Assembly: GCF_900100315.1 (NCBI RefSeq)
Contig: NZ_FNFF01000021.1
Location: forward strand, 1-64,000
Length of the DNA stretch: 64,000 nucleotides
Source: Streptomyces indicus
GTDB taxonomy: Bacteria > Actinomycetota > Actinomycetes > Streptomycetales > Streptomycetaceae
Reading direction: 5' to 3'
Shown here: piece by piece, positions 1 through 24,354 of the stretch
Numbering within the stretch: the first letter of the stretch is position 1
Layout: every line of letters starts with the position of its first letter
Made by a program: the position numbers and the translations under genes
The notes under the pieces: generated by a model
Told to the model about the DNA's origin: nothing
Database searches by the model: none
What the model saw: only the letters and a program-made list of their open reading frames with translations

Positions 1-45
1 GAAGACGGGACGGGCCTTGGCCGTCTGGCGAGTGGATTGCTCCAT
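1..45 (-). CDS. 5' end of an unidentified gene, cut by the window edge
   Basis: Reading the minus strand from the ATG at 45 gives MEQSTRQTAKARPVF before the window ends. It is divergent from the MarR gene, with a palindromic operator between the two starts, an arrangement usual for a MarR regulator and its target (often an exporter or oxidoreductase). Fifteen residues are too few to name the product. Confidence 0.35.
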   Translation of the reverse strand, partial: MEQSTRQTAKARPVF

Positions 46-105
46 GGCTCCGTCTCCTCTGCGGGCGGCGCGAGGCGCTACCCTGATATGCGGAGGTACT
101 ACATA

Positions 106-120
106 GTGAAGTCACTTCAC
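106..120. promoter_or_regulatory. Perfect palindrome, candidate MarR operator
   Basis: The sequence gtgaagt-c-acttcac is a perfect 7-1-7 palindrome that ends 3 bp before the chosen MarR start and lies between two divergent starts. MarR dimers bind inverted repeats of this size, so autoregulation plus control of the divergent gene is the natural inference. Confidence 0.6.
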
Positions 121-123
121 GAT

Positions 124-579
124 ATGCCGGAGCGACCCGGTCCCGCCAGAGCTTCGCTCGACCGGCTCTTCGAGCTGACCGAGGTGCTGGGCGCACTGAT
201 GCAGCGCGGCATGGCCGATCGCGGGCTGACCCTCGCGCGTGCCGGCGTGCTGTGGGCCCTGTTCCACGACGGTCCGATGACCCAGCGCGCCCTGGCCGCC
301 GCGCGCGGCGTCACGCCCCGCAACGTCACCGGCCTCCTGGACGCCCTGCAGGAGGAGGGCCTCGTCGCTCGCGAGGCGCACCCGACCGACCGCCGCGCGA
401 CGCTGGTCTCCCTCACTCCAAAGGGCCGCGAGTTCACCGCCGGCCTACGCGGGGGGCGCGACGAACTGGCCGCCCTGCTGTTCGCGGACCTCCCCCCGGA
501 GCGGCTCGACACCTTCGCCGCAACGCTGGTGCTGGCCATCGAGCGACTCAAGGACGTCGATCCCACCGCTCACGCGTAA
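124..579 (+). CDS. MarR-family transcriptional regulator
   Basis: This 151-residue protein has the size and layout of a MarR winged-helix repressor. A dimerisation helix (LDRLFELTEVLGALMQRG) is followed by a helix-turn-helix around residues 55-80 (MTQRALAAARGVTPRNVTGLLDAL), and the wing contains the family motif HPTDRRATLVSLTPKG. A C-terminal helix completes the dimer interface. Starts at 37 and 88 are open in frame, but the ATG at 124 begins where homology to the family begins. A perfect palindrome lies just upstream at 106-120, suggesting autorepression. The ligand and targets cannot be read from sequence; the divergent gene leaving the window to the left is the obvious target. Confidence 0.85.
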   Translation: MPERPGPARASLDRLFELTEVLGALMQRGMADRGLTLARAGVLWALFHDGPMTQRALAAARGVTPRNVTGLLDALQEEGLVAREAHPTDRRATLVSLTPKGREFTAGLRGGRDELAALLFADLPPERLDTFAATLVLAIERLKDVDPTAHA

Positions 580-627
580 CGTCCCCGCGAAGCGCTCCCG
601 CTTCCGGGCGCGCTCCCAAGGTTGGGC

Positions 628-777
628 ATGCAATCTCAACACTTCAACTGGCTGGTCCTGTCGATCCCGCTGAACAAGGCCCTGTTCCAGGGCGCCGACA
701 AGGCAGGCACATCGCAGGAGTTGTCGCGCTAGGCGGACGAGGCCGTCCGCGTTTTCCTGGCCGCGTACAGCCGCTAG
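628..777 (+). pseudogene. C-terminal remnant of a TetR/AcrR regulator with an internal stop
   Basis: Frame 628-777 reads a stretch (NWLVLSIPLNKALFQGAD) followed, after a TAG at 730-732, by ADEAVRVFLAAYSR and a TAG stop at 775-777. This matches the last roughly 50 residues of TetR/AcrR proteins, where a tyrosine codon is expected at the position of the internal TAG (TAC to TAG). The DNA-binding N-terminal half is missing. The remnant abuts an integrase remnant, so a deletion or recombination junction lies here. Confidence 0.6.
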
Positions 778-778
778 A

Positions 779-1012
779 CGCTGGGGGGAGTGGAACGAAC
801 TCGCGCGGGAGGCCGGCATCCGGGCGTCGCGCACCCACGATGCCCGGCACGCGGCGGCGACCCTCATGCACGAGCGGGGAATGGACATCCGCGTCGTGCA
901 GCAGATCCTCCGGCACTCCTCCCTCGCCGTCCCGAAGCGTTACGCGCACGCGACGCGGAAGCTCGCGAAGGATGCCGCGCACCGGGTCGAAAACGCCCTC
1001 TGGGGACCGTAA
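779..1012 (+). pseudogene. C-terminal remnant of a tyrosine recombinase (phage/ICE integrase)
   Basis: About 77 codons ending at TAA 1010-1012 encode the catalytic C-terminus of a tyrosine recombinase. The segment THDARHAAATLMHERGMD carries the H-x-x-R box, VVQQILRHSS is the box that usually reads LGH, and KRYAHATRKLAK supplies the tyrosine nucleophile. The N-terminal DNA-binding domains and the first catalytic arginine are absent, and the open frame runs directly out of the TetR remnant. It points at an attachment-site-like copy of the bldA 3' end 90 bp downstream, the usual int-att arrangement. Inferred to be a dead integrase from an earlier insertion at bldA. Confidence 0.75.
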
Positions 1013-1150
1013 CGGCAACTGAGAGTGCTACTGAACTGGGCCTGAAGGGCCGTTCCTGGGATCGACACGGGGGCGGCCCTCCCCCTTTCCGTAGACGAGA
1101 AAGGTGCCCGGAACCGGACTCGAACCGGTACGCCCCCGAGGGGCAGCGAG
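1001..1150. repeat. Left copy of a 150-bp direct repeat ending in 51 bp of the bldA 3' half (att-like)
   Basis: Positions 1001-1150 align with 10229-10378. Both begin with the integrase-tail codons (L-W-G-P-stop), share a region with the string cacgggggcggccctcccc, and end in an identical 51-bp core, 1100-1150 here and 10328-10378 at bldA. The core is the 3' half of the tRNA from the 3' strand of the anticodon stem to the acceptor end. Beyond 1150 the tRNA similarity stops, so this copy is not a functional tRNA. This is the expected footprint of site-specific integration into a tRNA 3' end. Confidence 0.85.
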
Positions 1151-1223
1151 ATTCAAGCCAGCTGGAGCGTGATCCTGTTCGATTCGCCGGGGTTCGCGAC
1201 CTCGAAGTCCGTCCTTGCCGTCC

Positions 1224-1406
1224 TTACCAGGAGGGCCCTCGGGGCGTCTGCGGGTCTTCAGGGCCGCCCGGGGTGCCCGGGTCGCCCTTCTCGCCCTTGA
1301 AGAGGGTCTTGTACTTGGCCGTCTTCTTCGTCAGGAGGGCGTCGAGGTAGCGCTCGAGGTTGTTCTCGAGGCACTCCTCACAGTCCGGGGAGCTCGGTGA
1401 AACCAC
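1224..1406 (-). CDS. Possible small protein with a collagen-like stretch; doubtful
   Basis: An open frame of 60 codons starts MVSPSSPDCEECLENNLER and ends with a Gly-x-y-rich tail (GEKGDPGTPGGP). The gap 1151-1556 holds no better candidate. The C-x-x-C pair and the G-x-y run look non-random, but there is no clear ribosome-binding site and high-GC DNA yields such frames by chance. It may be a gene fragment left by the element. Confidence 0.2.
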   Translation of the reverse strand: MVSPSSPDCEECLENNLERYLDALLTKKTAKYKTLFKGEKGDPGTPGGPEDPQTPRGPSW

Positions 1407-1556
1407 CCATCAGTGAGCCGATGAGCCAAGAGGAGTCACCAAAGAGAGGCATTAGGTGGACCGAGGCGTATATGACGGGTCGTCAGCGGTCACATAGGTC
1501 TGCGACCTCCGCCACCTCCGGCGGCAGACCAGCCCTACGTCGAACGAAGGCACCTC

Positions 1557-2123
1557 ATGCACAGAAGCACTCTGGCGGCCCCGCTCGCCGCACTCGTCAC
1601 CGCGGGCGCGGCCCTGACGCTGGTGTCCGGCGCCCCCGCGGCCGCCGAGCCCAAGCCCGAACCCAAGCCCAAGACCAAGACGGTCGAGAAGATCGAGTGC
1701 ACCCGGATGGACAACTGCCAGGCCCGCACCGCGGCCGTCCTGGTGAACCGGCACTTCCTGGTGAGCACCGATGCCAAGGGCAGCAAGTACATCTACACCT
1801 GCCGCAAGGGCGAGGAGCAGGGCTGCAACTCCCTGCTCTCGGCCCTGGACGTCATCGGCAAGTTCCGCTTCACGAAGGGCAAGAACGAGCACTACTGGTG
1901 CCTGCCCACCGATACCTGCCGCGCCCGGTACGTGGCCGCCGCCACCAACCGCAACATCCTGGTCTCCGTGGCCAAGCGCAAGGGCAAGGACGGCAAGATG
2001 CACAACGCCTGGGAGATGCGCTGCAAGGAGGGCCGCGAGGACTCCTGCAACCGCACCATGCGGGCCATGGGCTGGCTGTCCCAGTTCCGCTTCGAGGTTC
2101 CGGTCCGCTCCAAGGTGAGCTGA
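1557..2123 (+). CDS. Small secreted protein with a duplicated four-cysteine unit
   Basis: This 188-residue protein begins with a Sec signal peptide (MHRSTLAAPLAALVTAG, cleavage probably after about residue 30, APAAA). A Pro/Lys/Glu linker (30-43) follows. The mature part is two homologous units of about 60-66 residues. Cysteines at 48, 54, 82, 90 recur at 115, 121, 156, 164, so each unit has Cx5C then Cx7C, and each ends in a similar motif (IGKFRF; LSQFRF). The mature protein is strongly basic, with many Lys and Arg. I do not recognise the family. Even, paired cysteines in an exported protein suggest disulfides. A terminator follows at 2139-2166. It lies inside the putative bldA-integrated element. 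Confidence 0.8.
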   Translation: MHRSTLAAPLAALVTAGAALTLVSGAPAAAEPKPEPKPKTKTVEKIECTRMDNCQARTAAVLVNRHFLVSTDAKGSKYIYTCRKGEEQGCNSLLSALDVIGKFRFTKGKNEHYWCLPTDTCRARYVAAATNRNILVSVAKRKGKDGKMHNAWEMRCKEGREDSCNRTMRAMGWLSQFRFEVPVRSKVS

Positions 2124-2138
2124 GCGAAGCAGTCGGAC

Positions 2139-2166
2139 GGCCCGCCCCCGGGTCCGGGGGCGGGCC
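2139..2166. terminator. Bidirectional hairpin between convergent genes
   Basis: An 11-bp perfect G/C stem (ggcccgccccc / gggggcgggcc, loop 2150-2155) lies between the stop of the secreted protein (2123) and the stop of the convergent PgsC-like gene (2193). It probably terminates both. Confidence 0.7.
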
Positions 2167-2192
2167 GCGGCGTGTTCGGCCTCGGCGGCCGC

Positions 2193-2672
2193 TCAAGCTC
2201 TCGGCAGCATCCCGAGCAGCCCGCCGACCATGATCACGCCGTACACGCAGAACGTGACCACGCCCGTCGTCAGCAGCGTGGCCCTGGGCGGCTGCCGGAT
2301 GAGCTGGTACGCGATCAGGCCGGGAACGATGTAGCCGAGAGTCTGGTCGGCGAAGAACATCGGGTACTGCTGCTGCATCAGGACGTACACCGTGGTCTGG
2401 AGCACCACCCCGCACAGCACGACGGCCGCGAACAGCCGCTTGCCGTACAGGATCGCGAGCTGCTGGAGCACCCGGGAGCTCACGTACGTCAGAGCGGTGA
2501 CACCGGCGACCATCAGGGCGAGGCGCAGATCCTTGTCCATCGCGAGGGCGAGCCAGCCCGGCGTGATCATGCCGCCGGGGGACAGGTTGGTCACCAGGTA
2601 GCAGACGAGGGACAGCAGGAGCCCCACCGCGATACCCACGGCGGCCGCTTCGGGGGCGAGAACTACAGGCAT
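2193..2672 (-). CDS. pgsC: PgsC/CapC-like poly-gamma-glutamate biosynthesis membrane protein
   Basis: This 159-residue hydrophobic protein (MPVVLAPEAAAVGIAVGLLL...) has about four to five membrane segments and the PgsC/CapC size. It keeps family features such as LSPGGMITPGWLAL near residue 30-45 and ILYGKRLFAA around residue 75. PgsC forms the membrane part of the poly-gamma-glutamate synthase with PgsB, whose gene lies 82 bp upstream on the same strand. The ATG at 2672 has an AGGAG about 8 bp before it; the longer frame upstream is non-homologous. PgsA, the export/anchoring partner, is not in this window, so polymer production is an inference. Confidence 0.8.
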   Translation of the reverse strand: MPVVLAPEAAAVGIAVGLLLSLVCYLVTNLSPGGMITPGWLALAMDKDLRLALMVAGVTALTYVSSRVLQQLAILYGKRLFAAVVLCGVVLQTTVYVLMQQQYPMFFADQTLGYIVPGLIAYQLIRQPPRATLLTTGVVTFCVYGVIMVGGLLGMLPRA

Positions 2673-2754
2673 GGTGCGGGTCTCCTGGGAACCTGCCGGG
2701 GTCGGTCCGGGGATCGGGGCGCCTCGATGTCGTCGAACGGGGCCCTCGGCGGCG

Positions 2755-3978
2755 TCACACGGGATCCTCGGCGGCGTCGGCCGGGTCCTTGTCGCGGGGC
2801 AGCCGGTCGAGTCGTTCGAGGAGCAGCTCACCCTGGCCGTGGATGTTGCCGATCGCGACCAGCGACACCGGGGCGCCGGCCTCGTCCACACGGGCGATCA
2901 GCTCGTCGAGGATCTCGTCGGGATGGCGTGCGCTGCCGCCCAGATCGACCACTTCGCCTCCGTACGCGGCCGGGATGCCGCTGCGGGCGCTCTTGGTGGG
3001 ATGGCCGATCAGGTAGACGGTGTCGGGTGCGATGTCCGGGACGATGCGGCCCATCTGCACATTGCGTTCGACGCGGTCGGGGCGGCAGTTGATCAGGACG
3101 TGCAGCGGACGCCGGATCGCGCCGGCGCCGAGCAGCTGCTCGATGTTCATGAGGGTGGACGCCGGGTCGTTGGCGGCGAAGACGTTGGCGAAGCGGAGTG
3201 AAGTGCCCTCGGGAGTACGGAAGTTGAGCACCGTCAGAACGCCTGGGTCCGGCGGTGCCGCGTACATGCCGCGCAGCGCGGCCTCCCGGTCCACGCCAAG
3301 CAGTCCGGCGACTTCGAGGGCGATGGCGACGTTCTCCTTGAAGGTGTACCAGTGGAACCCGCCCAGCTCCTCGTCGGTCACGGACTCGGGGTCCGCGACG
3401 ACGAGCCGGCAGCCGCGGGCCGCCGCTTCCGCGCGCAGGATGGGCAGCCGCTCACGCTCGGCGGTCACGCAGACCCCGCCGACCGGCATGGACCGGCTGA
3501 GTGAGCGGGCCACGTCGTCGAGGGTGGGGCCCATCTCGGCGAGATGGTCCTCGCGTACGTTGCAGAGCACCCCGATGTCGGAGCGGATCAGCTTCTCCTG
3601 GTTGATCTCCTGGAGGTCCGGCATCACCGCCATGCACTCCACCACCAGGGCGTCCGGCGCGTAGGCGGCGGCCCGCCGCACGATGCCGACCTGCTCGATG
3701 ATGTTGGCGATCCCGAACTTGCGGTAGACCGGCTCCTCGGTGGCGTCGGGGTGGATGAAGCGGGCGGCGCTCCCGGTGGTCTTGGCGACCGTGACGAGCC
3801 CGCCGCCGCGCAGTGCGCCCGCGCACAGACGGGTGATGGAGCTCTTGCCGCGGATCCCGTTGACGAGGACGCGGTGCGGCACCCGCTCCAGGTTTGCGAA
3901 GTGCCGCCGCTGTTCGACGATGCCGCCGGCGGCGAGAGCGAGCGCGGAGAGCAGCAGGATCCAGTAGAGGAAGCTCAC
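2755..3978 (-). CDS. pgsB: PgsB/CapB-like poly-gamma-glutamate synthase subunit
   Basis: This 407-residue Mur-ligase-like ATP-dependent amide ligase has a short N-terminal membrane segment (FLYWILLLSALALAAGGI), a P-loop region at about residues 40-52 (VNGIRGKSSITRL), then GSAARFIHPD and the long conserved stretch around AVMPDLQEINQEKL and CNVREDHLAEMG typical of PgsB/CapB. PgsB activates and joins glutamates through gamma-carboxyl amide bonds on the cytoplasmic face of the membrane. The GTG start at 3978 overlaps the stop of the upstream receptor gene (GTGA), so the two are translationally coupled. Length matches the family (about 390-400). Confidence 0.85.
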   Translation of the reverse strand: MSFLYWILLLSALALAAGGIVEQRRHFANLERVPHRVLVNGIRGKSSITRLCAGALRGGGLVTVAKTTGSAARFIHPDATEEPVYRKFGIANIIEQVGIVRRAAAYAPDALVVECMAVMPDLQEINQEKLIRSDIGVLCNVREDHLAEMGPTLDDVARSLSRSMPVGGVCVTAERERLPILRAEAAARGCRLVVADPESVTDEELGGFHWYTFKENVAIALEVAGLLGVDREAALRGMYAAPPDPGVLTVLNFRTPEGTSLRFANVFAANDPASTLMNIEQLLGAGAIRRPLHVLINCRPDRVERNVQMGRIVPDIAPDTVYLIGHPTKSARSGIPAAYGGEVVDLGGSARHPDEILDELIARVDEAGAPVSLVAIGNIHGQGELLLERLDRLPRDKDPADAAEDPV

Positions 3979-6104
3979 CCGTCCTCCTGCCTGCTCAAGT
4001 CGTGCCCGCTCCGGTCGACCGGTTGCTCCGCTGCGAGCCGACGACGGATGAGATCCAGGTTGCGCATGATCGTTCCCACTTCGTCGGCGTGCCGCGGGTA
4101 CAGGACGGTGCGCCGGTCCCCACCCGCAAGGGCCACCGCCGCCCGCGCCGCCTCGCGCAGCGGCCGCAGCACCACCAGATGCAGCCAGCCCATGCACAGC
4201 AGGACGGCGGCCAGCGCGAGCAACCCGGCCACCACACACCGGCGTTCGGTCTCGTACGAGGGCAGCGCCGACCAGGAAAGCGGCTTCTCGGTGACCACGC
4301 GCCAGCCGAGGCGGGCCACGGGGCCGGGGCCGGTGAGCGGTGCGTCGGCCGTGAACGCCGGCGCGTCGGCCCCGCGCAGCAGATCGCCGAGCGAGCTGTC
4401 GGTGGACCACTCGGTGAGTGTGCCGACCACGCCCTGGCCGGGCAGTGAGGCGAACGCCGTGAACCCGCGGTTGCCGCCGATGACCTTGGACCGGGCGTCG
4501 ACCAGCCAGGCCCGCCCGATCCCGGGGTGGTCCAACGGCGCGCTGAGCAGCTCCGGTTCGAGCTCACCGACCAGCATGGCGCCGTTCCCGAGCGGTGCGA
4601 GCGCGGCGACCAAGGGCTCTTTGCCGGAGTGGTTGAGCTGCACCGTCGTAGGTTCGGCGAGCGAGGCGAGCAGCGGTCGCCAGTCGTACGCGGTAGGGGA
4701 GTCGCCCGCCGTGGCTAGTACAGCGCCCGTGGGGTCGAGCAGGTACAGCGCACGCCAGCGCTGTCCGTCCGCCGCGGCCTGCTCCAGGAGTGCGGACGCC
4801 TGCGCCGCATCCCGCCGTACGGCCGGCGCCAGGGAGGACAGGTCGGCTGCCGCCTCGAGGACAAGCCGGCGCAGTCGGTCGGCGGTGGCCTGGGTGCGAT
4901 AGCCCTGGTCGCGGCCCAGCAGTGTGCGGGCCGCCTGCTCGCGAACCCGGTCCTGGGCGTCCGCGTGGTTGAGCAGCGGAAGGGTCAGCGCCCAGCCCGC
5001 GACCAGGGCCGTGCACAGCAGTGCCGTGGCTCGCACGCTGCCGAGCCCCTTACATGCCGGGGCGGCGGCAGCACGCGGAAGAATCGGTTCGCCTGAACGG
5101 AGCTCGGCCCGCAGGGACTCCAGCGCCTCCCCGATCCGCAGCGGTTCGCCCCACCCGCGGACCCGTACCGCTTGCGAGGTCTCTCCGCGGGCGAGGCGTC
5201 CGGACTCCTCGCCCAGGCGCAGCAGCGGCTGCTGCACCCTGCGACGCAGCAGCCAGGTGGTGAGCGCGGTGATGGCGAGCAGGGCGGCCGCGGCGGCCAG
5301 CGCAAGGCGCGCGTCGCCGCGTGCGGCGGTGCCGCGCGGCACGGACACGGCCGTCGTCAGGGTCAGCCCGAAGCCCTCTACGGTCTCGTCGCCTGCCACG
5401 GGAGCGCTGCCGAGGGCGAGTTGGCGATCCGGTCCGTCCGTCACGACGGGCGTCCGCCGGGCGCCGGCGGACGCCCGCAGCGCGGGATCGGATGCCCGTT
5501 CACCGGCTGCGGCGAGCACCTGACCCGCGGGGTCGGTGACGAGGGTGGTGCGCCCCGCCGCGTCCGGCGGCATCCGGAGAGCCCCAGAGGCGAGCAACAA
5601 CAGCGGTCGCTTGCCCGGAGGTTGGAAGGTGGCGTGGGTGACGAGGCGCGTCTGCCCGTCGGGCAGACGGGCCAGGGCAGCCGAGGGGGTCGCGGGCAGC
5701 GGGCCCGTCGCGGGGATCGCCTCGCCGGTGGCGGCGAGCGTCCGCCCGGTGGCCGGGTCACGCAGCGCCAGACCACGCCATTTCTGATACGAGCCGCTGA
5801 TGGCCGCGACCATCTCCCGAGGGGGCAGAGCGCCGAACATCCTTGTGGCGTGCGGGAGATCGCGTACCTGCTGGCGGAGTGCCGAACCGACCGTACCGGC
5901 CCCGTCCTCGGCGATGAACTGCTGCGCGTCGAGCACGGCCTGGGACACCGGGGTGTCGTCCGCGCGGCCGACGGTCACGGCGGTGAAGACGCAGACGCCG
6001 AGCAGCAGCGCCGACAGAAGGACGAGGGGCGGCCGCGCGCCACCGAGCAGCGGTACATCCGCACGACGGCCCAGAACACGTCTGCGCTCCGGGGTCTGGG
6101 CCAT
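3975..6104 (-). CDS. Membrane protein with two Cache-like/HAMP modules and no output domain
   Basis: The roughly 709-residue protein is an internal duplication. TM1 (about 26-46) precedes an extracytoplasmic domain to about 270, TM2 (LALAAAAALLAITALTTWLL), and a HAMP-like segment (RRRVQQPLLRLGEESGRLARGE). Then TM3 (about 365-385), a second extracytoplasmic domain, TM4 (VVAGLLALAAVLLCMGWLHL) and a second HAMP-like segment ending GTIMRNLDLIRRRLAAEQ. Sensor motifs recur (LALRDPATGRTLAATG; LYLLDPTGAVLATAG). No kinase, cyclase or methyl-accepting domain follows. Its stop overlaps the pgsB start, so it probably senses an extracytoplasmic signal for, or is part of, the PGA-like system; that is inference. 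The ATG at 6104 is preferred; 6143 is an alternative. Its large size and coupling to pgsB are unusual. Confidence 0.75.
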   Translation of the reverse strand: MAQTPERRRVLGRRADVPLLGGARPPLVLLSALLLGVCVFTAVTVGRADDTPVSQAVLDAQQFIAEDGAGTVGSALRQQVRDLPHATRMFGALPPREMVAAISGSYQKWRGLALRDPATGRTLAATGEAIPATGPLPATPSAALARLPDGQTRLVTHATFQPPGKRPLLLLASGALRMPPDAAGRTTLVTDPAGQVLAAAGERASDPALRASAGARRTPVVTDGPDRQLALGSAPVAGDETVEGFGLTLTTAVSVPRGTAARGDARLALAAAAALLAITALTTWLLRRRVQQPLLRLGEESGRLARGETSQAVRVRGWGEPLRIGEALESLRAELRSGEPILPRAAAAPACKGLGSVRATALLCTALVAGWALTLPLLNHADAQDRVREQAARTLLGRDQGYRTQATADRLRRLVLEAAADLSSLAPAVRRDAAQASALLEQAAADGQRWRALYLLDPTGAVLATAGDSPTAYDWRPLLASLAEPTTVQLNHSGKEPLVAALAPLGNGAMLVGELEPELLSAPLDHPGIGRAWLVDARSKVIGGNRGFTAFASLPGQGVVGTLTEWSTDSSLGDLLRGADAPAFTADAPLTGPGPVARLGWRVVTEKPLSWSALPSYETERRCVVAGLLALAAVLLCMGWLHLVVLRPLREAARAAVALAGGDRRTVLYPRHADEVGTIMRNLDLIRRRLAAEQPVDRSGHDLSRQEDG

Positions 6105-6334
6105 GGCTCCTGATTTCCGCACCGTCGTTGCGGCCAGAATCATGACCCACGCCCGCTGCGTTCATACGGACCTAATATGGCGTGTTCCGAATTGCAGGAA
6201 AGTTCGTCTAGTTGCCGCAGCGTACCGACAGACGAGTGAAACGGCCTACAGTCCGTCAAAAGTTATGAGCGATTTGATTTTGCCGATCTTTGTCATCGAT
6301 TAGAAGGGGAGGGCCAGCAAGGAGAGGGAAGATC
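6105..6334. promoter_or_regulatory. Divergent promoter region between the receptor/pgsBC operon and the LAXTG protein
   Basis: This 230-bp intergenic stretch is distinctly richer in A/T than its surroundings (for example cctaatatggcgtgttccga and gttatgagcgatttgatttt). It must hold promoters for both divergent units. I see no clear consensus boxes or strong inverted repeat. Shared control of the two units is plausible but not shown. Confidence 0.5.
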
Positions 6335-9300
6335 ATGCATTGGCGGAAACGGCGTCCACTTCGGATCGCCTTGGCGGCAGGGTTCCTCACTGCTTCCGGG
6401 GCCTCGATCACCGGGCCGGCCGCTGCGGCCGCGGCACCCACCATCAATATCGCCGTGAGCGTGGCCAAGGACGGCAACGGCAATTTCACGAGTACGGACG
6501 GTCCGGGCCTCGACTCGGGTGCGAACAACGGGATCGTGCGGACCCACAGCACCGTGCAGTACAAGGTGGACGTCAATGTGAAGGGGGGTACCGCCAAGAA
6601 CGAGACCTTCACGCTCGACGCCCCCGCGGGCACCGAATGGCGGCAGCTTCCCACGATCTGCACCGGTCCCGGCTCGAAGATCGACGGAAAGCAGCTGATC
6701 TGCAACCTGGGCGATCTCACGAATGCCTCCCGCAGCGTTCCCGTACTCCTTCATGTGACGGGCGAAGCCAAGAATGGCGACACTCTTCCGCTCTCCGCCA
6801 CGGTCAGTTCCGACAATGCACCGGGAAAGACGGTGCACGCCAAGCCCGTCACCGTGTCCGCGGCTCCGAAGTTCGACCTGAGCAAACAGGGTGGCAGCCT
6901 CACCCGCAATCAGGCGGAAGGCCCGAACGGTGAGCCCGGGATGGTCTACCAGTTCCCGATCCTGGTCGAGACAAAATCCCAGGCCGATCCGGCGCATTCT
7001 CCCAAGCTGGGCTCCGAGGCACTGAGTTCACCGGTTTCGTTCACGGACGACATCTCGCAGATCCTGGACGGCAAGGCCTCGGCGGGCGCCCGGCTCTACG
7101 ACTGGGGTCCGATGGCGGCCTGCGGCCCCTTCCCGGCGAGCCGGCCCGGCAGCCAGCCCGCGGGCCGCGACGGTGGCGCGGCAGGCGTTACCGAGTCCGG
7201 CACCTTCGCCTGTACGCAGCCGGCCCCCGGCCAGAACATCGGCGTCACCATCACCGGCGCCGACACCACCGCGGACCACGTGCCGACCCGGGCCACCAAC
7301 GGCCGCGCGCTGCGCGCGAACTCCTCGTACGTGATCTCCGGCTACATCCGGATCTGGATCCCGCAGGACGAGATCAACGCGGCGGCCGAAGGCAAGCCCG
7401 GCGGCGTCGTCGACATCAAGAACACCTACTCCGGCTTCGACCCCAGGAGCGTCTCCGGCCTCAGCAACTACGGTTCCGGCACCGAGCCGACGGGCAACAA
7501 CAGCGCCGTCACCAATGTCGTGATCAACGGCCGGCTGCTCCTGAACAAGCAGTACGAGGACATGGAGGGCGGCCCGGGCGGCACCGCCACGGACTACAAG
7601 ACCGGCGACGGCTTCGTCACCCCGGACGAGACCTTCCGCAGCCGGATCCGGATCACCAACTCCGGCGTGACGCCCTACGATCCGGTCATGGCGTGCGACA
7701 CCTTCGACAACGAGGTGCAGACCCTCAGCCCGGACGCGAACGGCGTCTACGCCTTCTCCCGCAACACCGGAAACCCCGTCAAGATCGAGTACGCCGCCGC
7801 CGACTGGGGCAGCCCGCGGGACATCCAGCAGGCCGACTGCAACGACGCCGACGGCCCTTGGTTCGACGATCCCACGAAGGTGCCCGGCGGCATCGCGGCC
7901 GTGGGCAAGGTCCGCTTCACCGGCACGCTCCCCGGCAGCCGGCAGGGCTACTACTACACGAACCTCAAGGTCGCCGACGGCGTCGAGGACGGCGCACGGC
8001 TGCGTAACTTCGGTGAGGCGAAGGCCCGTCAGCTGTGGGTCCACGACACCGGTGACCCGGACGAGGCACTGGGCCGCGCGGCCGACCGCCTCACGGTCAC
8101 CTCGGTCCTGACCAGGGTGAAGAAGCGGGTCGTCGAGCCCGGCCAGACGGCCGAGACCGCCGTCGACCGGCCGAGCTTCCTGATCACCGCGGGGCGCACC
8201 GCGACCTACGCCCTCTACCCGAGCCTGACCTCCAAGGCCAACGGCACCGGCACCCACGACGTGACAGTCGTCGACACCCTGCCCAAGCACATCCAGTACG
8301 CGGGAGACGCCTCCGTCGAGCCGCAGAGCGTGCGGCCCAACCCGGACGGGACCACCACGGTCACCTGGGTCCTGAAGGACCGTAAGGTCAACGAGCCCAT
8401 CGACCCGATCACGTTCACCGTGCGGGCCAGCTCCACGGCCCCCGAGACCACGGCCGTGAACGAGGTCGTGACCTCCACGCCCGCGGACAAGAGCCCGGAG
8501 GAGCAGCGCAAGTCGACCTCCGCGCTGCGTATCGCGCACGGTGCGGCGCTCGCGGTGGAGAAGGAGGCCCCGGTCCCCGTGGAGAAGGTGGGCGACGACC
8601 TCCATTACAACCTGACGATCGCGAACCACAGCCCGCGCCCGCTGCGCAATCTCGACATCATCGACGCCCTGCCGTACAACAGCGACGCTCGCAAACCCGC
8701 GAGCGATTTCCACGGCACCGTCGGCCTGGCCAAGGCTCCGGGCCCGCTCGGCGACGGCACCGTCTATTACACCCTCGCGGACCCGGCGGACATCGACCTC
8801 GACCCGGCGGACCCCACCAACTCCACTGGTGGGGCGACCCGTTGGTGCACGCAGGCCGAGCTCGGCACCACGGGCTGCCCGAAGGACCTGTCCAAGGTCA
8901 CCGGCTTCCGTATCAAGTGGCCCGGACCGCTGGCGCCGAACGAGACCCACTCGTACGACCTGCTCCTCGCCACTAAGGGTGCGGTGCACGACGACGTCTA
9001 CACCAACCGCATCGGCGCCCGCGCCGACGGTCTCGCGCTGCCGGTGCAGTCGGGGGACGCGACGGTCAGGGTGGTCGACAACGCACCGCCGCAGCCGCCG
9101 GTCCCGGTCACGATCCCGGTGCCGCCGCAGGACCCCGACGACCCGTCGCAGGATCCGGAGGACCCGCCGGCCAAGCCCGAGCCCCCGGCCAAGCCGAAGC
9201 CCCCGGCCGACCCGCCGGCCAAGCCGAAGCCCCCGGTCGTGCCTCCGGCCGACCCCGACGAGCCTCCGGCCCCCGGTGACCCGTCCCTGGCGGACACTGG

Positions 9301-9397
9301 TGCCGACACCAGCACGTACGCTCTCGGCGGCCTGGCCTTCGGCCTGACCGTCGCGGGCACCGCCCTCGTCGTCCGGGCGCGGCGCAGGGAGCGCTGA
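6335..9397 (+). CDS. Large LAXTG cell-wall-anchored surface protein with DUF11-like repeats
   Basis: This 1020-residue protein has a signal peptide (MHWRKRRPLRIALAAGFLTA) and a long all-beta stalk. It contains DUF11-like conserved-repeat domains (for example YALYPSLTSKANGTGTHDV and HYNLTIANHSPRPLRNLDII), then a Pro/Lys/Asp-rich wall-spanning linker (about 930-980). It ends with the sorting signal LADTG at about 985-989, a hydrophobic helix and an RARRRER tail. LAXTG is the signal used by class E sortases of high-GC actinobacteria. The ATG at 6335 has an AAGGAGAGGG ribosome-binding site; the longer frame from 6290 lacks one. A perfect terminator follows. It is divergent from the receptor-pgsBC operon and may be its surface partner. 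Confidence 0.85.
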   Translation: MHWRKRRPLRIALAAGFLTASGASITGPAAAAAAPTINIAVSVAKDGNGNFTSTDGPGLDSGANNGIVRTHSTVQYKVDVNVKGGTAKNETFTLDAPAGTEWRQLPTICTGPGSKIDGKQLICNLGDLTNASRSVPVLLHVTGEAKNGDTLPLSATVSSDNAPGKTVHAKPVTVSAAPKFDLSKQGGSLTRNQAEGPNGEPGMVYQFPILVETKSQADPAHSPKLGSEALSSPVSFTDDISQILDGKASAGARLYDWGPMAACGPFPASRPGSQPAGRDGGAAGVTESGTFACTQPAPGQNIGVTITGADTTADHVPTRATNGRALRANSSYVISGYIRIWIPQDEINAAAEGKPGGVVDIKNTYSGFDPRSVSGLSNYGSGTEPTGNNSAVTNVVINGRLLLNKQYEDMEGGPGGTATDYKTGDGFVTPDETFRSRIRITNSGVTPYDPVMACDTFDNEVQTLSPDANGVYAFSRNTGNPVKIEYAAADWGSPRDIQQADCNDADGPWFDDPTKVPGGIAAVGKVRFTGTLPGSRQGYYYTNLKVADGVEDGARLRNFGEAKARQLWVHDTGDPDEALGRAADRLTVTSVLTRVKKRVVEPGQTAETAVDRPSFLITAGRTATYALYPSLTSKANGTGTHDVTVVDTLPKHIQYAGDASVEPQSVRPNPDGTTTVTWVLKDRKVNEPIDPITFTVRASSTAPETTAVNEVVTSTPADKSPEEQRKSTSALRIAHGAALAVEKEAPVPVEKVGDDLHYNLTIANHSPRPLRNLDIIDALPYNSDARKPASDFHGTVGLAKAPGPLGDGTVYYTLADPADIDLDPADPTNSTGGATRWCTQAELGTTGCPKDLSKVTGFRIKWPGPLAPNETHSYDLLLATKGAVHDDVYTNRIGARADGLALPVQSGDATVRVVDNAPPQPPVPVTIPVPPQDPDDPSQDPEDPPAKPEPPAKPKPPADPPAKPKPPVVPPADPDEPPAPGDPSLADTGADTSTYALGGLAFGLTVAGTALVVRARRRER

Positions 9398-9411
9398 GAT
9401 CTGTCGCAGAA

Positions 9412-9452
9412 CATGCCTGTGGGGCCGGTCCGAAACCGGCCCCACAGGCATG
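9412..9452. terminator. 18-bp perfect hairpin terminator
   Basis: Arms 9412-9429 (catgcctgtggggccggt) and 9435-9452 are exact reverse complements around a 5-nt loop, 15 bp after the stop of the LAXTG protein. Confidence 0.85.
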
Positions 9453-9609
9453 TTCGCGTACCCGACGACGCCGCGTTCGGAGGCGATTCAAGGCAACACG
9501 CAACCGCGCGGGCTCGGCGAACCTCGACACGGATTCGGTCACAGTGGGAGCGGTGGGGGCGGCATGGTGGCCGGGGAGATCCCAGCACAGTCCGCCTGGG
9601 ACCTCATGA

Positions 9610-9972
9610 AACACCGCCCCCCCAACCAGCGCCCTCGAATCTGGCACATTTCGACGTCCGCGTGACCGTCTCCGTCCGGGGTTCGCCTGGCTGCGTGGCC
9701 ATGGAACCACCCTGCTGCTCTCGGAGGAGGGCCTCATCACCTCGCACCCGGGGGTGGGGTGGGCCGTCCGCGACCCGGAGCAGTCCGCAACCCGACCATT
9801 GGGCGAGCGACTGCGGCAGCGACTGCTCGACGGGGGTTTCGCAGTCGATGACCGCTTCCTCTCCGAGCCGGAGGTGTGCTCAGAGTTCGGGACGACTCAA
9901 CGTACGGGCGGAGCATCGATGCTCCTCCGTGCCGGTCGGCAGGTGACGAGGCTTGCGTACCAGGTGAGTTGA
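9610..9972 (+). pseudogene. Unrecognised gene fragment
   Basis: An open frame without a credible start contains protein-like sequence (PGFAWLRGHGTTLLLSEEG; LGERLRQRLLDGGFAVDDRF) and then loses coherence after about 9900. I do not recognise the family. It lies in the junk-like stretch 9453-10330 before the bldA junction and is best seen as a decayed remnant of the integrated element. Confidence 0.35.
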
Positions 9973-10210
9973 TCGCGCCTCGTCGAGCCTGGCCGGCTCG
10001 GTGACGATGCGAGCGGATCCCGTCTCCGCGGCGACTCCGACGGCTTGGAGGCCGACGGCCGCGGCCTGCTCCGGTTCGTGGACGCGGGCGCGGGCGCCGG
10101 CGAAGGCGACCGCCTTGCGTGCGAGGTAGACCCCGCAGTTGCGGCGGTACGTCGCGGGCCGTGTTGATGTACGCGGCATCGAGCCAGCTGCCCCAGCCGC
10201 TGCTGTCGTC
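9880..10210 (-). pseudogene. Decayed C-terminal part of a helix-turn-helix/TPR regulator
   Basis: On the minus strand one frame reads GSWLDAAYINTARDVPPQLR. A shifted frame continues with RARVHEPEQAAAVGLQAVGV and AAETGSARIVTEPARLDEAR. This resembles the C-terminal tetratricopeptide-like region of the large Streptomyces XRE-type regulators (repeats of the type EPEQA...A.E.GSARI). Two frames are needed, there is no start, and the DNA-binding domain is absent, so it is a frameshifted remnant. Assignment rests on remembered family sequence. Confidence 0.4.
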
Positions 10211-10240
10211 GAGACGTTCGCACCCCTCTGGGGACCGTAA
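10208..10240 (+). pseudogene. Extreme 3' tail of a second integrase gene
   Basis: The codons before TAA 10238-10240 read VETFAPLWGP, paralleling VENALWGP at the end of the integrase remnant at 1012. The downstream 90 bp also match. Only the last few residues survive. On its own it would be meaningless; the homologous flank makes it credible. Confidence 0.5.
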
Positions 10241-10378
10241 CTGCAACCAGGAGTGCAACTGGGCAGGGCTGGAAGGATCGCTCCTGGGATCCACACGGGG
10301 GCGGCCCTCCCCATTTCCGCAGACAGAAAAGGTGCCCGGAACCGGACTCGAACCGGTACGCCCCCGAGGGGCAGCGAG
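10229..10378. repeat. Right copy of the 150-bp direct repeat overlapping bldA
   Basis: This copy pairs with 1001-1150. The terminal 51 bp (10328-10378) are identical and form the 3' half of the intact bldA tRNA; the remaining 99 bp are similar but diverged (for example tggggaccgtaactgcaacc here against tggggaccgtaacggcaact). The two copies bracket about 9.2 kb. Confidence 0.85.
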
Positions 10379-10415
10379 GTTTAAGCTCGCCGTGTCTGCA
10401 TTCCACCATCCGGGC
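10331..10415 (-). tRNA. bldA: tRNA-Leu (anticodon UAA), bldA
   Basis: Minus-strand sequence starting GCCCGGATGGTGGAATGCAG folds as a class II tRNA. The acceptor stem is GCCCGGA/TCCGGGC, the anticodon stem GCGAG/CTCGC encloses the loop CTTAAAC (anticodon TAA), a long variable arm contains TGCCCCTCGGGGGC, and the T-loop is GGTTCGAGTCC. The terminal CC is encoded but the final A is not. Leu-tRNA(UAA) is the bldA product, the only tRNA that reads UUA efficiently in Streptomyces and a known regulator of development and antibiotic genes. The 3' end is the junction of the integrated element, yet the tRNA is intact. Confidence 0.97.
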
Positions 10416-10965
10416 AGGCCGCGGGATCGCTTGAGCGGAGTCCGAGCCTATCCGGACACATCCCCCGAACAGCGCAACGACAGACCGATGTTGTCTTATT
10501 TTATTGACGACTGACGGGGCGTCAGATGTGACGGGTGGTCGAGTGTGCATGGTGTGTGCGGTCTGTGCTCACCCGGGCGAGGTGCGCCGGCGCGTGCAGG
10601 ATTGACGGAATTCCGCCCCCTGTCAGGTCGTCTCCGAGGTCGGGGCAGGTCCCCGGCTGGACCCGGCCGGTCTCGGACGGGTCCGAACGAGGCCCCCGGA
10701 CGGCCCCGGACAAGAGCCCCGGACGGAGCCCGGACGGTCCCGGCCGGTCCCGCGCAGGGCGCCGGAGCGCGCCCCGCCCCGCGGCCGGGAGGACGAAGGA
10801 CTCAGGGTCCGGACTCATACCTGGGGATGACTGCGGGGTCGGGCCGTCAGCCTGAAGAGGGCGTGCAGAACCGGAGCCAGGGGTGACTTCACGCGCCTTT
10901 TACGCGGTGACGATGGAGACATCCGAACACGTCAGATGTCCCCGTCCCGTCAGGAGCACGCCCCC
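10416..10965. other. 550-bp non-coding region between bldA and the ABC transporter
   Basis: No gene is supported. It contains an A/T-rich patch (about 10488-10507, tgttgtcttattttattgac) that could belong to the bldA promoter, a perfect palindrome at 10511-10525, and about 170 bp of imperfect GGACGG/GGTCCCG-type repeats (10640-10770). Confidence 0.5.
10511..10525. promoter_or_regulatory. Palindrome ctgacg-ggg-cgtcag
   Basis: A perfect 6-3-6 inverted repeat 96 bp upstream of the bldA 5' end. A one-mismatch version (ctgatg-tgc-cgtcag) lies 65 bp before the LPQTG gene at 41681. It may be a protein-binding site; the binder is unknown. Confidence 0.35.
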
Positions 10966-11736
10966 GTGACCACCACCCCCCTCGCCACCCAGGCCACCGC
11001 CGTAGCCGCCCGGGCCACCGAGCTGACCAAGGTCTACGGCCAGGGCGAGACCCAGGTGGTCGCCCTGGACCGCGTGACCGTCGAGTTCCAGCAGGCGCAG
11101 CTCACCGCGATCATGGGCCCGTCCGGGTCCGGCAAGTCGACCCTGATGCACTGCGTCGCCGGTCTGGACAGCTTCAGCAGCGGTTCCGTGCGCATCGGTG
11201 ACACCGAGCTCGGGTCGCTCAAGGACAAGCAGCTGACCAAGCTGCGCCGCGACAAGATCGGCTTCATCTTCCAGGCCTTCAACCTGCTGCCGACCCTGAC
11301 GGCGTACGAGAACATCACGCTGCCCATGGACATCGCCGGCCGCAAGCCCGACAAGCAGTGGGTGCAGCAGGTGATCGACATGGTCGGGCTCAGCGGCCGC
11401 CTCTCGCACCGGCCCTCGCAGCTGTCCGGCGGACAGCAGCAGCGGGTGGCGGTGGCGCGGGCGCTCGCGTCCAAGCCCGACATCATCTTCGGGGACGAGC
11501 CGACCGGAAACCTCGACTCGCGCTCCGGTGCCGAGGTGCTCGGGTTCCTGCGCAACTCCGTACGCGAACTCGGCCAGACCGTCGTGATGGTCACCCATGA
11601 CCCGGTGGCCGCCGCGTATGCCGACCGCGTCGTCTTCCTCGCCGACGGACGCATCGTCGACGAGCTGTACGAGCCGACCGCGGACTCCGTGCTCGACCGC
11701 ATGAAGCGGTTCGACGCCAAGGGCCGCACGAGCTGA
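10966..11736 (+). CDS. ABC transporter ATP-binding protein (MacB/LolD/FtsE type)
   Basis: This 256-residue ATPase has Walker A GPSGSGKST at 51-59, the Q-loop FQAFNLLP, the signature LSGGQQQRVAVARAL, Walker B IIFGDEPT and the switch histidine in MVTHDP. The closest families are the MacB/LolD/FtsE ATPases that drive mechanotransmission or extrusion through FtsX-like permeases rather than substrate pores. The GTG at 10966 has an AGGAG 9 bp upstream; the in-frame ATG at 10936 does not. The partner permease gene begins 59 bp downstream, so they form one operon. The substrate is unknown. Confidence 0.92.
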   Translation: MTTTPLATQATAVAARATELTKVYGQGETQVVALDRVTVEFQQAQLTAIMGPSGSGKSTLMHCVAGLDSFSSGSVRIGDTELGSLKDKQLTKLRRDKIGFIFQAFNLLPTLTAYENITLPMDIAGRKPDKQWVQQVIDMVGLSGRLSHRPSQLSGGQQQRVAVARALASKPDIIFGDEPTGNLDSRSGAEVLGFLRNSVRELGQTVVMVTHDPVAAAYADRVVFLADGRIVDELYEPTADSVLDRMKRFDAKGRTS

Positions 11737-11795
11737 CCGCCGGCCCGAACCGCCGCAGCCAGCAGTCAACTCCGTACTGAGACAAGAGACTTCCC

Positions 11796-14348
11796 ATGTT
11801 CCGTACTGCCTTGCGCAATGTGCTCGCGCACAAGGCCCGGTTGCTGATGACCGTGCTCGCCGTGATGCTCGGCGTGTCCTTCGTGTCCGGCACCCTGGTC
11901 TTCACCGACTCGGTCTCCCAGGCCATCAAGAACAACGCGTCGACGAACTACAAGGACGTCGACGTCGTCATCACGCCCAAGGAGGGCAGGAACCACGCCG
12001 AGGGCAAGCCCGGACAGGCGCCCAAGCTCACCCAGGACCTGCTCGACAAGGTGCAGGGCACGGCGGGCGTCGAGTCGGCCACCGCGTCGATCTCCGGCTA
12101 CACCGCCGTCGCCGACAAGAAGGGCAAGCTCGTCGGTGACGGGTGGGCCTCCACCGGCACCAACTACCTCCCGGGCAAGGACGGCAAGGACAGCCGCTAC
12201 CCGATGGAGTCCGGCCGCGGCCCGCAGAACGGCGACGAGATCGCGCTCGACTCCAAGACCGCCGAGCGGGCCGGCTACAAGGTCGGCGACACCGTGCGGC
12301 TGTCCGTGGACGGACCGGTGATCACGCCGAAGATTGTGGGCATCTTCGACGCCGACGACAACGGCTCGGTCTCCGCCGGCGGCACCCTGGTCGCCTTCGA
12401 CAACGCCACCGCGCAGGACAAGTTCGCGGCGCCCGGCGAGTACGACCAGATCCAGGTCACGGCCGCCCCCGGCACCGGCCAGGCCGAGCTGCGCGACACC
12501 CTCGCCGCCACCGTGCCGAAGACCGCCGACCTGGACACCGCGGACCGGCTGATCGCCGACCAGGAGAAGTCCATCGACGCCGAGACCTCGGGCATCAAGA
12601 CCTTCATGCTGGTCTTCGCCGGAGTCGCGCTGTTCGTCGGCATCTTCATCATCGCCAACACCTTCACCATGCTGGTCGCCCAGCGCTCCAAGGAGATCGC
12701 GCTGATGCGCGCGGTGGGTGCGAGCCGCAAGCAGGTCACGCGGTCCGTCCTCGCCGAGGCGTTCTTCGTCGGTCTGGTCGCCGCAGTCGTCGGTCTCGCG
12801 GCCGGTATCGGCATCGGCGTCGGCATGCGCGCCGTCCTCGGCACGAACGTCGGCCTGCCCGACGGCCCGACCGTGATCGCCCCGGCCACCGTCGTCTCCG
12901 CCTTCGCCGTCGGCATCATCGTCACGATGCTCTCGGCCTGGCTGCCGGGCCGCCGCGCCGCGAAGATCCCGCCGGTCGCCGCGATGAACGCGCTGCACGC
13001 CACGCCCACCACCAAGGGCCTGGTCGTACGGAACACCATCGGCGCGGTCTTCAGCGGCCTCGGCATCGCCGCCGTCCTCTACGGCCGCACCATGGCCGCC
13101 TCGGACGCCAAGCTCCCGATGGGTCTGGGCGCAGCCCTCCTGGTGATCGGCGTCTTCGTCCTGACGCCGCTGCTCTCCCGCCCGGTCATCGGCGCCGCCG
13201 CGCCGCTCCTGAAGGCCTTCGGCGTCTCGGGCAAGCTGTCCCGGCAGAACGCGGTGCGCAACCCGCGCCGCACCGCCGCGACCGCCTCGGCCCTGATGAT
13301 CGGTCTGACCCTGCTCACCGGCATCACGGTCATCGCCGGCACCCTGCAGAAGTCCATCGACAAGATGGCCACCGAGGCGCTGCGCAGCGACTACGTGGTC
13401 TCGATGAGCAACCAGTCGCCGCTGTCCCCCGAGGTCGAGAAGACCCTCGCGAAGACCGAGGGCGTCACCGAGACCTCGCCGCTGCGGATGTCGCCCGCCA
13501 AGGTGTTCACCACCGACGGCGGCTCCCGCGCGGACCAGCTGGTCGGCGTGAACGGCAAGACCATCGACAAGCTGGTCCAGCTGGACTTCACCGCCGGCGG
13601 CTGGGACCTGACCGGCGACAACGCGGTGGTCGACACCGACACCGCCAAGGCGTACGGCTGGAAGAACGGCCAGAGCGTCGACGCGGTCTTCGAGGACGGC
13701 AAGCGCGGCAAGCTGAACATCGTCGGTGTCTACGAGGGCAACGAGATGATCAAGGGCCTCATGGTCGACACCTCGGTGCTCGACCCGCACATGAAGACCC
13801 CGGTCGACTTCCAGGTCATGCTGAAGACCTCGGACGGCGTCTCGGAGGCCACGAAGGACAAGCTGGTCAAGGCGCTCGGCGAGAACCCGGCGATCGCGGT
13901 CGACGACAAGGCCGACATCTCCAAGGCCATCGGCGGCATCTTCAACATGATCCTGAACATGCTGTACGGGCTGCTCGCGATGGCCGTCCTGGTCGCGGTG
14001 ATCGGCGTGATCAACACCCTCGCGATGTCGGTGTTCGAGCGCCGCCAGGAGATCGGCATGCTGCGGGCGATCGGCCTGGACCGCAAGGGCATCAAGCGGA
14101 TGGTCCGCCTCGAGTCCATCGTGATCTCGCTGTTCGGCGGTGTGCTCGGCATCGGGCTCGGCCTGTTCTTCGGCTGGGCCACGGGCGAGCTGCTCAAGTC
14201 CCTGATGACCACGTACACGCTGGTCATCCCGTGGGGCCGGATGGGCGTCTTCCTCGCCCTGGCCGGTGTGGTCGGTGTCCTCGCGGCGCTGTGGCCGGCG
14301 CGGCGGGCGGCGAAGCTGAACATGCTGGACGCCATCAAGGCGGAGTGA
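11796..14348 (+). CDS. ABC transporter permease with two FtsX domains
   Basis: This 850-residue protein has an N-terminal membrane anchor (LLMTVLAVMLGVSFVSGTLV) and a large extracytoplasmic MacB_PCD-like domain. Three membrane segments of a first FtsX domain follow (from about residue 265, MLVFAGVALFVGIFIIANTF), with the coupling-helix motif QRSKEIALMRAVGASRKQV. A second extracytoplasmic domain and a second FtsX domain (LLAMAVLVAVIGVINTLAMS; RRQEIGMLRAIGLDRKGIKR) complete it. This double-FtsX layout is typical of actinobacterial permeases paired with the ATPase encoded just upstream. A strong terminator follows. Confidence 0.92.
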   Translation: MFRTALRNVLAHKARLLMTVLAVMLGVSFVSGTLVFTDSVSQAIKNNASTNYKDVDVVITPKEGRNHAEGKPGQAPKLTQDLLDKVQGTAGVESATASISGYTAVADKKGKLVGDGWASTGTNYLPGKDGKDSRYPMESGRGPQNGDEIALDSKTAERAGYKVGDTVRLSVDGPVITPKIVGIFDADDNGSVSAGGTLVAFDNATAQDKFAAPGEYDQIQVTAAPGTGQAELRDTLAATVPKTADLDTADRLIADQEKSIDAETSGIKTFMLVFAGVALFVGIFIIANTFTMLVAQRSKEIALMRAVGASRKQVTRSVLAEAFFVGLVAAVVGLAAGIGIGVGMRAVLGTNVGLPDGPTVIAPATVVSAFAVGIIVTMLSAWLPGRRAAKIPPVAAMNALHATPTTKGLVVRNTIGAVFSGLGIAAVLYGRTMAASDAKLPMGLGAALLVIGVFVLTPLLSRPVIGAAAPLLKAFGVSGKLSRQNAVRNPRRTAATASALMIGLTLLTGITVIAGTLQKSIDKMATEALRSDYVVSMSNQSPLSPEVEKTLAKTEGVTETSPLRMSPAKVFTTDGGSRADQLVGVNGKTIDKLVQLDFTAGGWDLTGDNAVVDTDTAKAYGWKNGQSVDAVFEDGKRGKLNIVGVYEGNEMIKGLMVDTSVLDPHMKTPVDFQVMLKTSDGVSEATKDKLVKALGENPAIAVDDKADISKAIGGIFNMILNMLYGLLAMAVLVAVIGVINTLAMSVFERRQEIGMLRAIGLDRKGIKRMVRLESIVISLFGGVLGIGLGLFFGWATGELLKSLMTTYTLVIPWGRMGVFLALAGVVGVLAALWPARRAAKLNMLDAIKAE

Positions 14349-14366
14349 CCGCTCCGGTACGCGGGC

Positions 14367-14401
14367 CAGGGCCCGGCTCCCACCTCGGGAGCCGGGCCCT
14401 G
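14367..14401. terminator. 15-bp perfect hairpin terminator
   Basis: Arms cagggcccggctccc (14367-14381) and gggagccgggccctg (14387-14401) flank a 5-nt loop just after the permease stop and before the convergent methyltransferase gene. Confidence 0.8.
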
Positions 14402-14402
14402 C

Positions 14403-14461
14403 GTCGTATGCGGAGATCAGTCGTACGCGGAGATCCGGGGATCAGTCGTACGCGGGGATCA
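14403..14461. repeat. Three imperfect copies of a 16-bp repeat
   Basis: gtcgtatgcggagatc, gtcgtacgcggagatc and gtcgtacgcggggatc occur in tandem with short spacers. The last copy touches the stop codon of the convergent methyltransferase. No function is evident. Confidence 0.6.
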
Positions 14462-15766: not shown

Positions 15767-15995
15767 GGTGGATCACCTTCCCTGTCTCGGAACGGTTCCT
15801 CACCCACGTCAACACCGCACACCCCGAATTCAAGCCCGGGGGCGCCTTTCGGGGGATGGGCACGCTCCCCGGGACGTGATCCACAGGCCTTCTCGCCCGG
15901 TGCCCCGCCTCCGCCGACCCCCCATAAGCGCGGTCTATGACCTCCCCTCCAGATCGCGTCTAGCGGGGGCTTCGTCCCGGGCGCACGCTGGGATC

Positions 15996-24171: not shown

Positions 24172-24306
24172 GGACCGCAGCCACCTCCCGTTCACACCGC
24201 GGCGTATGCGGCGCCGTCCACGCCGCGGCGTCACGCGGCGCCGTACACCAACTGCTTGCCCCGTCGCGCAGGTCATCCAATCTCTCTGCACCGGAGTGGC
24301 CCCCGC

Positions 24307-24354
24307 CTTGTGCGCGGAGTGGCCGTCCTGTTGTGCGCAGAGTGGCCGTCCTCG
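24307..24354. repeat. Two tandem copies of a 22-bp sequence upstream of cbs
   Basis: ttgtgcgcggagtggccgtc and ttgtgcgcagagtggccgtc repeat with a period of 22 bp about 70-110 bp before the cbs start. The position would suit a regulator-binding array or a duplicated promoter element; no further evidence. Confidence 0.45.

Follow-up and report, generated by a model that had tools for sequence, protein, structure and literature searches.

The tRNA gene bldA, which specifies tRNA-Leu(UAA), controls the timing of translation of UUA-containing developmental and antibiotic regulators. In Streptomyces indicus, the 3' half of this gene is found at both ends of a 9.2-kb segment within a stretch of 64,000 nucleotides (contig NZ_FNFF01000021.1, positions 1 to 64,000; hereafter the window), and the question raised by this locus is how the second copy arose. 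The arrangement very probably represents two related integrative elements arrayed in tandem, each having used the 3' half of bldA as its attB. An earlier reading of the same DNA (the preliminary description) had already proposed that related elements inserted at least twice at the bldA 3' end. This is now supported by three att copies, because together they show the hybrid arms expected of two ends and an internal site. Positions given without a contig are those of the window; other genomes and contigs are designated by our own numbers (G and C, respectively).

Three copies of the bldA 3' half

The two 150-bp repeats of the preliminary description were confirmed: positions 1001-1150 and 10229-10378 were identical at 131 of 150 positions, with an invariant 51-bp tail (1100-1150 and 10328-10378, 51/51) preceded by 99 bp that have diverged (80/99 identical). 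The full repeat extended over 163 bp (996-1158 against 10224-10386) with 87% identity and a score of 200 bits, compared with 32.8 bits for the best self-match obtained in 20 dinucleotide shuffles of positions 1-14000. The identity stopped at 1158 and 10386, and the DNA adjoining these points differed between the copies. As also described, the right copy completed an intact bldA (10331-10415, minus strand, anticodon TAA), which was the sole tRNA gene called by ARAGORN in the window and was 100% identical over 85 bp to the bldA of seven other Streptomyces in a run of 199 genomes. The integrase 3' tail that had been assigned to both copies held for the left one, which contains the end of a 77-codon C-terminal piece; in the right copy it amounted to 17 nt only (10224-10240, identical at 17/17 positions to 996-1012).

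A third copy of the repeat was present in the same genome, on contig C40 (2131-2202, minus strand). This copy, att3, shares a 70-bp core with the one at the intact gene, att1 (10317-10386): from 14 nt past the tRNA 3' end to position 10386, the two agreed at 69 of 70 positions, the single mismatch (10382) being, by counting, the middle anticodon base. att1 joins the right element to the 5' half of bldA. The P arm of that element (10224-10330, plus strand) consists of the last 17 nt of the integrase gene and a spacer, in which a G+C-rich inverted repeat was seen by eye. The remaining copy, att2 (1089-1166), is an attP-like internal site whose core (1100-1150) reproduces exactly 48 nt from the 3' half of bldA plus 3 nt downstream; beyond it, att2 and att3 run on together into a short P' arm of non-tRNA sequence. 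The core followed by P' (up to 3 mismatches) was found only in the window and on C40 among 392 Streptomyces genomes. Judged from the order of these parts, att3 reads as flank-core-P', att2 as integrase tail-P-core-P', and att1 as integrase tail-P-core followed by the intact bldA 5' half. The three copies would then be the left end (att3), the internal site (att2) and the right end (att1) of a tandem pair. ARAGORN also called a tRNA-Ser(TGA) gene at att3; the call was dismissed as spurious because, by eye, its 5' half fails to pair with the bldA-derived acceptor strand.

A single integration could also have been followed by a segmental duplication of the bldA 3' end and its flank, giving rise to the second att copy. 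Such an event would account for the integrase tail, the spacer and the core being common to both copies, and an unrelated segmental duplication was the alternative named in the preliminary description. However, the spacers differed at 19 of 87 positions while the 51-bp core was identical, the two stretches carry different cargo, and att2 runs into a P' arm that is also present at att3. Plain duplication was rejected on the grounds that the copies end within the anticodon loop and have hybrid arms, and we regard this origin as quite improbable.

The repeat might instead be a second copy of the bldA 3' half maintained by selection, for instance as a tRNA-fragment gene. The full identity of the core and the tRNA-Ser(TGA) call at att3 would be compatible with such a role. 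Nevertheless, the identity of the core is explained by selection on the native gene together with recent exchange, the 5' half of att3 leaves the acceptor stem incomplete (by eye), and no tRNA was called at att2. A selected copy is thus scarcely credible.

For a tandem array of two elements, we propose that a tyrosine integrase would have exchanged strands inside the core, at a point placed 3' of the middle anticodon base, the only one that differs between att1 and att3. Each of two successive insertions of related elements would have restored a complete tRNA gene and displaced the older bldA 3' half outward. The integrases would have been mostly lost afterwards, with 77 codons kept in one element and 17 nt in the other. 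The elements would persist as cargo carriers; as their att sites are retained, a related integrase might in principle mobilize them in trans.

Integrase remains and comparison with known elements

The truncated tyrosine integrase gene comprises the C-terminal 77 codons and the stop codon (779-1012, plus strand, with the codons at 779-1009; PF00589, E 3.7e-13). It belongs to the left element and points toward att2. When its C-terminus was searched against 392 genomes, the nearest relatives were 47-51% identical. Three of the five best relatives stop 81-105 bp short of a tRNA-Thr(CGU) gene located on the opposite strand, which is the layout of the window and was therefore counted in favor of the tandem array; one of the other two reads into a gene of this kind, and the 3.2-kb stretch of the last is devoid of tRNA genes. 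Elsewhere in the genome itself, the integrase C-terminus matched just two sequences (35-36% identical). Plasmid and phage integrases reached at most 39% and 45% identity, respectively, among the matches listed, and the att region matched six plasmids over its tRNA part alone.

We have compared the two units with actinomycete integrative and conjugative elements (AICEs). According to the accessible text of PMC3218068, pSAM2-type AICEs combine a tyrosine integrase, an attB at a tRNA 3' end and a recombinase gene beside one att site, all of which are recognizable here, where direct att repeats at the tRNA 3' end are present. Unlike these AICEs, the window elements revealed no rep, traB or full int: neither unit has a complete site-specific integrase gene (77 codons on the left, 17 nt on the right), and a Pfam scan of ten main proteins from both units, with smaller frames outside the scan, detected no rep or TraB/FtsK. 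No replication or transfer gene was thus seen in either element among the proteins scanned. Both units have att sites on both sides without functional integrase or transfer genes, as expected of a cis-mobilizable element (CIME) or an accreted remnant; for the left unit, this holds through the C40-C35 contig join considered below.

The accretion of elements at tRNA genes has precedents. Tandem pairs of pSAM2-type AICEs are reported in Frankia and S. avermitilis in the accessible part of PMC3218068, where the only tRNA-Leu site named is that of serine-recombinase elements of Mycobacterium. In the available sections of PMC9513070, AICEs and defective AICEs are stacked at a tRNA-Arg gene in Streptomyces. 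As in our case, several elements of the same specificity occupy one tRNA gene, including a remnant without traB; in contrast to that array, which is located at tRNA-Arg and has functional members, the one described here is at bldA, both of its units are integrase-degraded, and the proteins scanned contained no traB. A tyrosine integrase and an attB overlapping a tRNA gene are shared with tRNA-dependent lysogeny, in which, as far as the accessible text of PMC10865867 describes it, the tRNA gene is destroyed and a phage tRNA takes its place, whereas here bldA is rebuilt intact and no other tRNA is present in the window. Accretion at a tRNA gene would therefore be nothing new as such; bldA as a recurrent target seems less expected.

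The degraded state of both units also bears on another explanation, in which a composite element (a composite integrative and conjugative element or a composite CIME) carrying att2 as an internal site entered once, without a second insertion. Both units are integrase-poor and cargo-rich, and a composite island with an internal att site has been described in S. turgidiscabies (accessible sections of PMC8369830, which also restate the role of bldA in UUA decoding). Sequence alone cannot separate entry as a single unit from successive insertion. The two P arms have, however, diverged (80/99 identical), which argues for two element lineages, and we consider entry as one composite unlikely.

Gene content of the two units

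Contig C35 starts at window base 1, so the left element of the tandem array extends past the window edge. The cargo of the left unit comprises a MarR regulator (115-579, plus strand), a methyltransferase (PF13649), a putative ABC permease without a family match, and an ABC ATPase (C40). The MarR-methyltransferase module (window 1-579) also occurs at the end of contig C45, with a MarR 97% identical, and at the start of contig C28, which carries it from inside MarR onward. Its repetition at three contig ends would account for the interruption of the assembly at window base 1. In the C28 copy, window base 1 and C40 base 1 are ~958 bp apart (C28 364-1321), so that the module bridges the first bases of C40 and C35, and ~0.96 kb of the left unit is absent from the contigs. 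One informative overlap site (window 243) pairs C28 with C45, leaving C40 with C35. The bridging module was considered together with NDH, which is located near the C40 start and adjoins the block formed by bldA and the ABC transporter and CFA synthase genes (bldA-ABC-CFA) in 8/8 right flanks analysed (11 fetched). From these two observations we infer that C40 and C35 are joined. In the C28 copy of the module, the ABC ATPase is interrupted and runs on into the final part of the permease region.

The 9.2 kb of the right element encode a small protein with a signal-peptide-like start by eye (1557-2123, plus strand, no family match). It is followed on the minus strand by a CapC/PgsC-like membrane protein (2193-2672; PF14102, E 8.6e-34), which scored 83.9 bits against TIGR04011, under the cutoff of 96.45, and by a PgsB/CapB-like poly-gamma-glutamate synthase (2755-3981; TIGR04012, 364 bits, cutoff 222.7). 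A HAMP-domain protein (3975-6143, minus strand; PF00672), linked to capB-capC in other Streptomyces, precedes a large DUF11 protein that has the look of a surface protein (6335-9397, plus strand; PF01345). Near the integrase end there is a weak GntR-regulator remnant (9610-9969, plus strand; PF00392, E 4e-4, below cutoff). The cargo genes counted contained no TTA codons, and a search for DUF11 relatives in the genome contig collection gave 46 pattern matches, none of them confirmed.

The pgsB-like gene was found in 16 of 60 other Streptomyces sampled and in none of 39 genomes of other genera. In 11/11 loci inspected, from scattered Streptomyces, it was accompanied by capC and the HAMP gene. 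It was located at least 0.23 Mb from bldA in the 7 of these 16 genomes that list both on one contig; in the remaining 9, the two were on different contigs or bldA was not listed. The PgsBC-like cluster is accessory and not core.

The bldA flank in other Streptomyces

We have compared 40 bldA neighbourhoods, which in most cases covered ~17 kb on the 3' side, against 2 kb for G148 and 13.6 kb for G116. Genomes entered this set because of a high bldA identity, a low number of contigs or an additional match to bldA (12 of the 16 such genomes), so the sample is non-random. The names of flank genes (ABC transporter, CFA synthase, NDH, pectate lyase and BI1) were given by eye from the translations, without a family search. 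The preliminary description had considered that the 9.2 kb might be syntenic core; this was ruled out, as its genes were found 3' of bldA in 0/40 neighbourhoods and the pgsB-like gene in 16 of the 60 other Streptomyces sampled. The forecast that the segment would be absent in some relatives and int genes present in others was borne out in part: 14 of the 40 neighbourhoods were nearly empty and 3 of 6 genomes inspected in this respect had a full tyrosine integrase next to bldA, but this integrase was of another type than that of the window. BI1 (window 18321) was located 3' of bldA in 35/40, at a distance of 128-334 bp in 14 and of 0.8-10.9 kb in 21. In the other five it lay beyond the fetched stretch, the same flank being found past the island or, in G148, on contig C24. 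The landing of mobile elements helps to account for this variation of the bldA 3' flank, from 128 bp to 10.9 kb to a conserved flank gene.

In the window genome, the 5' side of bldA has BI1, located past bldA-ABC-CFA, whereas NDH is on the 3' side, past att3. This order points to a local inversion of bldA-ABC-CFA (window 10331-15778, C40 1-6950, window 18230), which was unseen in the 40 relatives and whose two junctions are both inside contigs.

Several observations weigh against the tandem array. An intact element with this type of P' was found in 0/391 other Streptomyces and gave 0 exact matches in the genome contig collection, and the integrase C-terminus matched 0/40 of the bldA neighbourhoods (E 1e-5). 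The identity of att2 and att3 in P', beyond the core, is short (~8 bp). The C40-C35 join was not assembled; the MarR module also ends C45 and C28, and C28 is assigned to C45 through the single site at window 243. To the left of att3, pectate lyase and then NDH make up a flank that differs from the ancestral one of bldA, so that the inversion has to be assumed as well. Finally, in G166, which was outside the sample of 60 genomes, capB-capC is located ~20 kb from bldA on its 5' side, meaning that this cluster is not always far from bldA.

Other elements at bldA

A bldA match was obtained in 388 of the 392 Streptomyces genomes; G030, G130, G139 and G168 gave none at E <= 1e-3. In six other genomes (G015, G162, G019, G158, G166 and G237), a 24-27-bp copy of the bldA 3' end was present 5-43 kb downstream of the gene, on its own contig and strand. 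This count is a lower bound, as only the 2-4 best candidates were scored per genome in the wide runs. In G015, G162 and G019, 83-101 bp separate the bldA 3' end from an integrase of 417-432 aa, and the far bldA copy is ~65-104 bp from the conserved flank. The G015 island contains portal, major head and endolysin genes; the PHROGs scan covered two proteins of the G019 island and none of that of G162. G166, with transposases beside bldA and a copy ~8 kb from the conserved flank, is a less clear case, and no integrase was detected in the two proteins scanned from G158.

The integrases of G015 and of Streptomyces phage Chymera (KU958700.1) were 100% identical, and the record of this phage contains a 27-bp bldA match ~100 bp from the integrase gene. 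By eye, GGTGCCCGGAACCGGACTCGAACC is common to the Chymera attP, the bldA junction and the far junction, which diverge after it, and this split fits the expectation for attP, attL and attR. In G015, the far copy is located at 3115367 and bldA at 3150109, that is, 34,742 bp apart, which is the length of the Chymera record. The accessible part of PMC10117723 places prophage Chymera at 3114820-3149561 of S. venezuelae, the offset from the G015 coordinates being 547-548. The matching spacing and coordinates suggest that G015 is S. venezuelae or its near twin; the prophage ends at bldA. Read from these sequences (24211-24508 in the phage record), Chymera is placed exactly in the bldA 3' end, with attP, attL and attR readable. 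The main text of PMC10117723 does not mention bldA, and a Chymera-like prophage in the same strain is noted in the available text of the survey PMC10023795. Like the window elements, Chymera takes the bldA 3' end as attB. Unlike them, it is a complete phage with another type of integrase, its core extends from the T arm to the 3' end (24 bp), and the start of its integrase gene faces bldA.

A core of the same kind as that of the window, reaching the anticodon loop, was observed in G148. Its bldA copy, 56 bp through the anticodon loop, is on another contig (C24), and by eye this copy and bldA share 25 bp downstream in addition to the 56 bp of the 3' half. An integrase-like C-terminal tail is present beside bldA (by eye). 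On the C24 side we found cas3, cse1, cas7, cas5, a gene for a Cas6e-type protein and cas1, which correspond to type I-E, and CRISPR-like repeats were seen by eye in two places, where C23 ends and next to the C24 copy. C23 and C24 probably bound one CRISPR-Cas island at bldA.

Taken together, the window array, Chymera and the islands of other species point to bldA as a recurrent integration site. Such a use of bldA was not found in the literature searched; supplements and most subscription journals were outside the search, and its absence is unproven. The familiar att systems of Streptomyces phages (phiC31, phiBT1, VWB, R4, TG1 and SV1) are not known to use bldA. The preliminary description had also raised an effect of faulty integration on UUA decoding. 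This is unsupported because bldA is intact, with no damage seen.

A broader and rather speculative idea is that bldA is a general Streptomyces integration hot spot for at least two integrase classes, with a core reaching the anticodon loop or the T arm only. The 3' half or end of bldA and its trailer would then often be supplied by the element, and the state of integration could modulate UUA decoding. If this were true, the integrated or excised state of an element would change the bldA trailer and neighbouring transcription, and UUA decoding and development could be modulated, for instance in S. venezuelae with Chymera. The P' arm of the window has another middle anticodon base, and an exchange a few bases off would recode the tRNA. 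The diversity of elements at the bldA 3' end and the presence of Chymera in a model strain would make the effect of integration and excision on bldA maturation testable.

Second bldA matches were listed for 31 genomes, seven of which were counted as islands. Eleven short partial matches (22-39 bp), far off or on other contigs, were left uncounted, such matches also arising by chance or from other tRNAs. Apart from four pieces on the 5' side of bldA (see below), the remaining ones span the whole gene and were taken to represent different tRNA genes, one of which, in G203, was 84% identical; these were not counted either. In IMG/VR, the bldA 3' end had two matches, which were set aside, as by eye they look like tRNA-Leu genes of other bacteria. 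A 29-31-bp piece corresponding approximately to bldA 50-80 was observed ~1.2 kb 5' of bldA in four genomes (G143 C2:52445, G249 C5:49433, G299 C10:49862 and G375 C1:6356650), where it may be either an att scar or an unrelated T-arm-like sequence.

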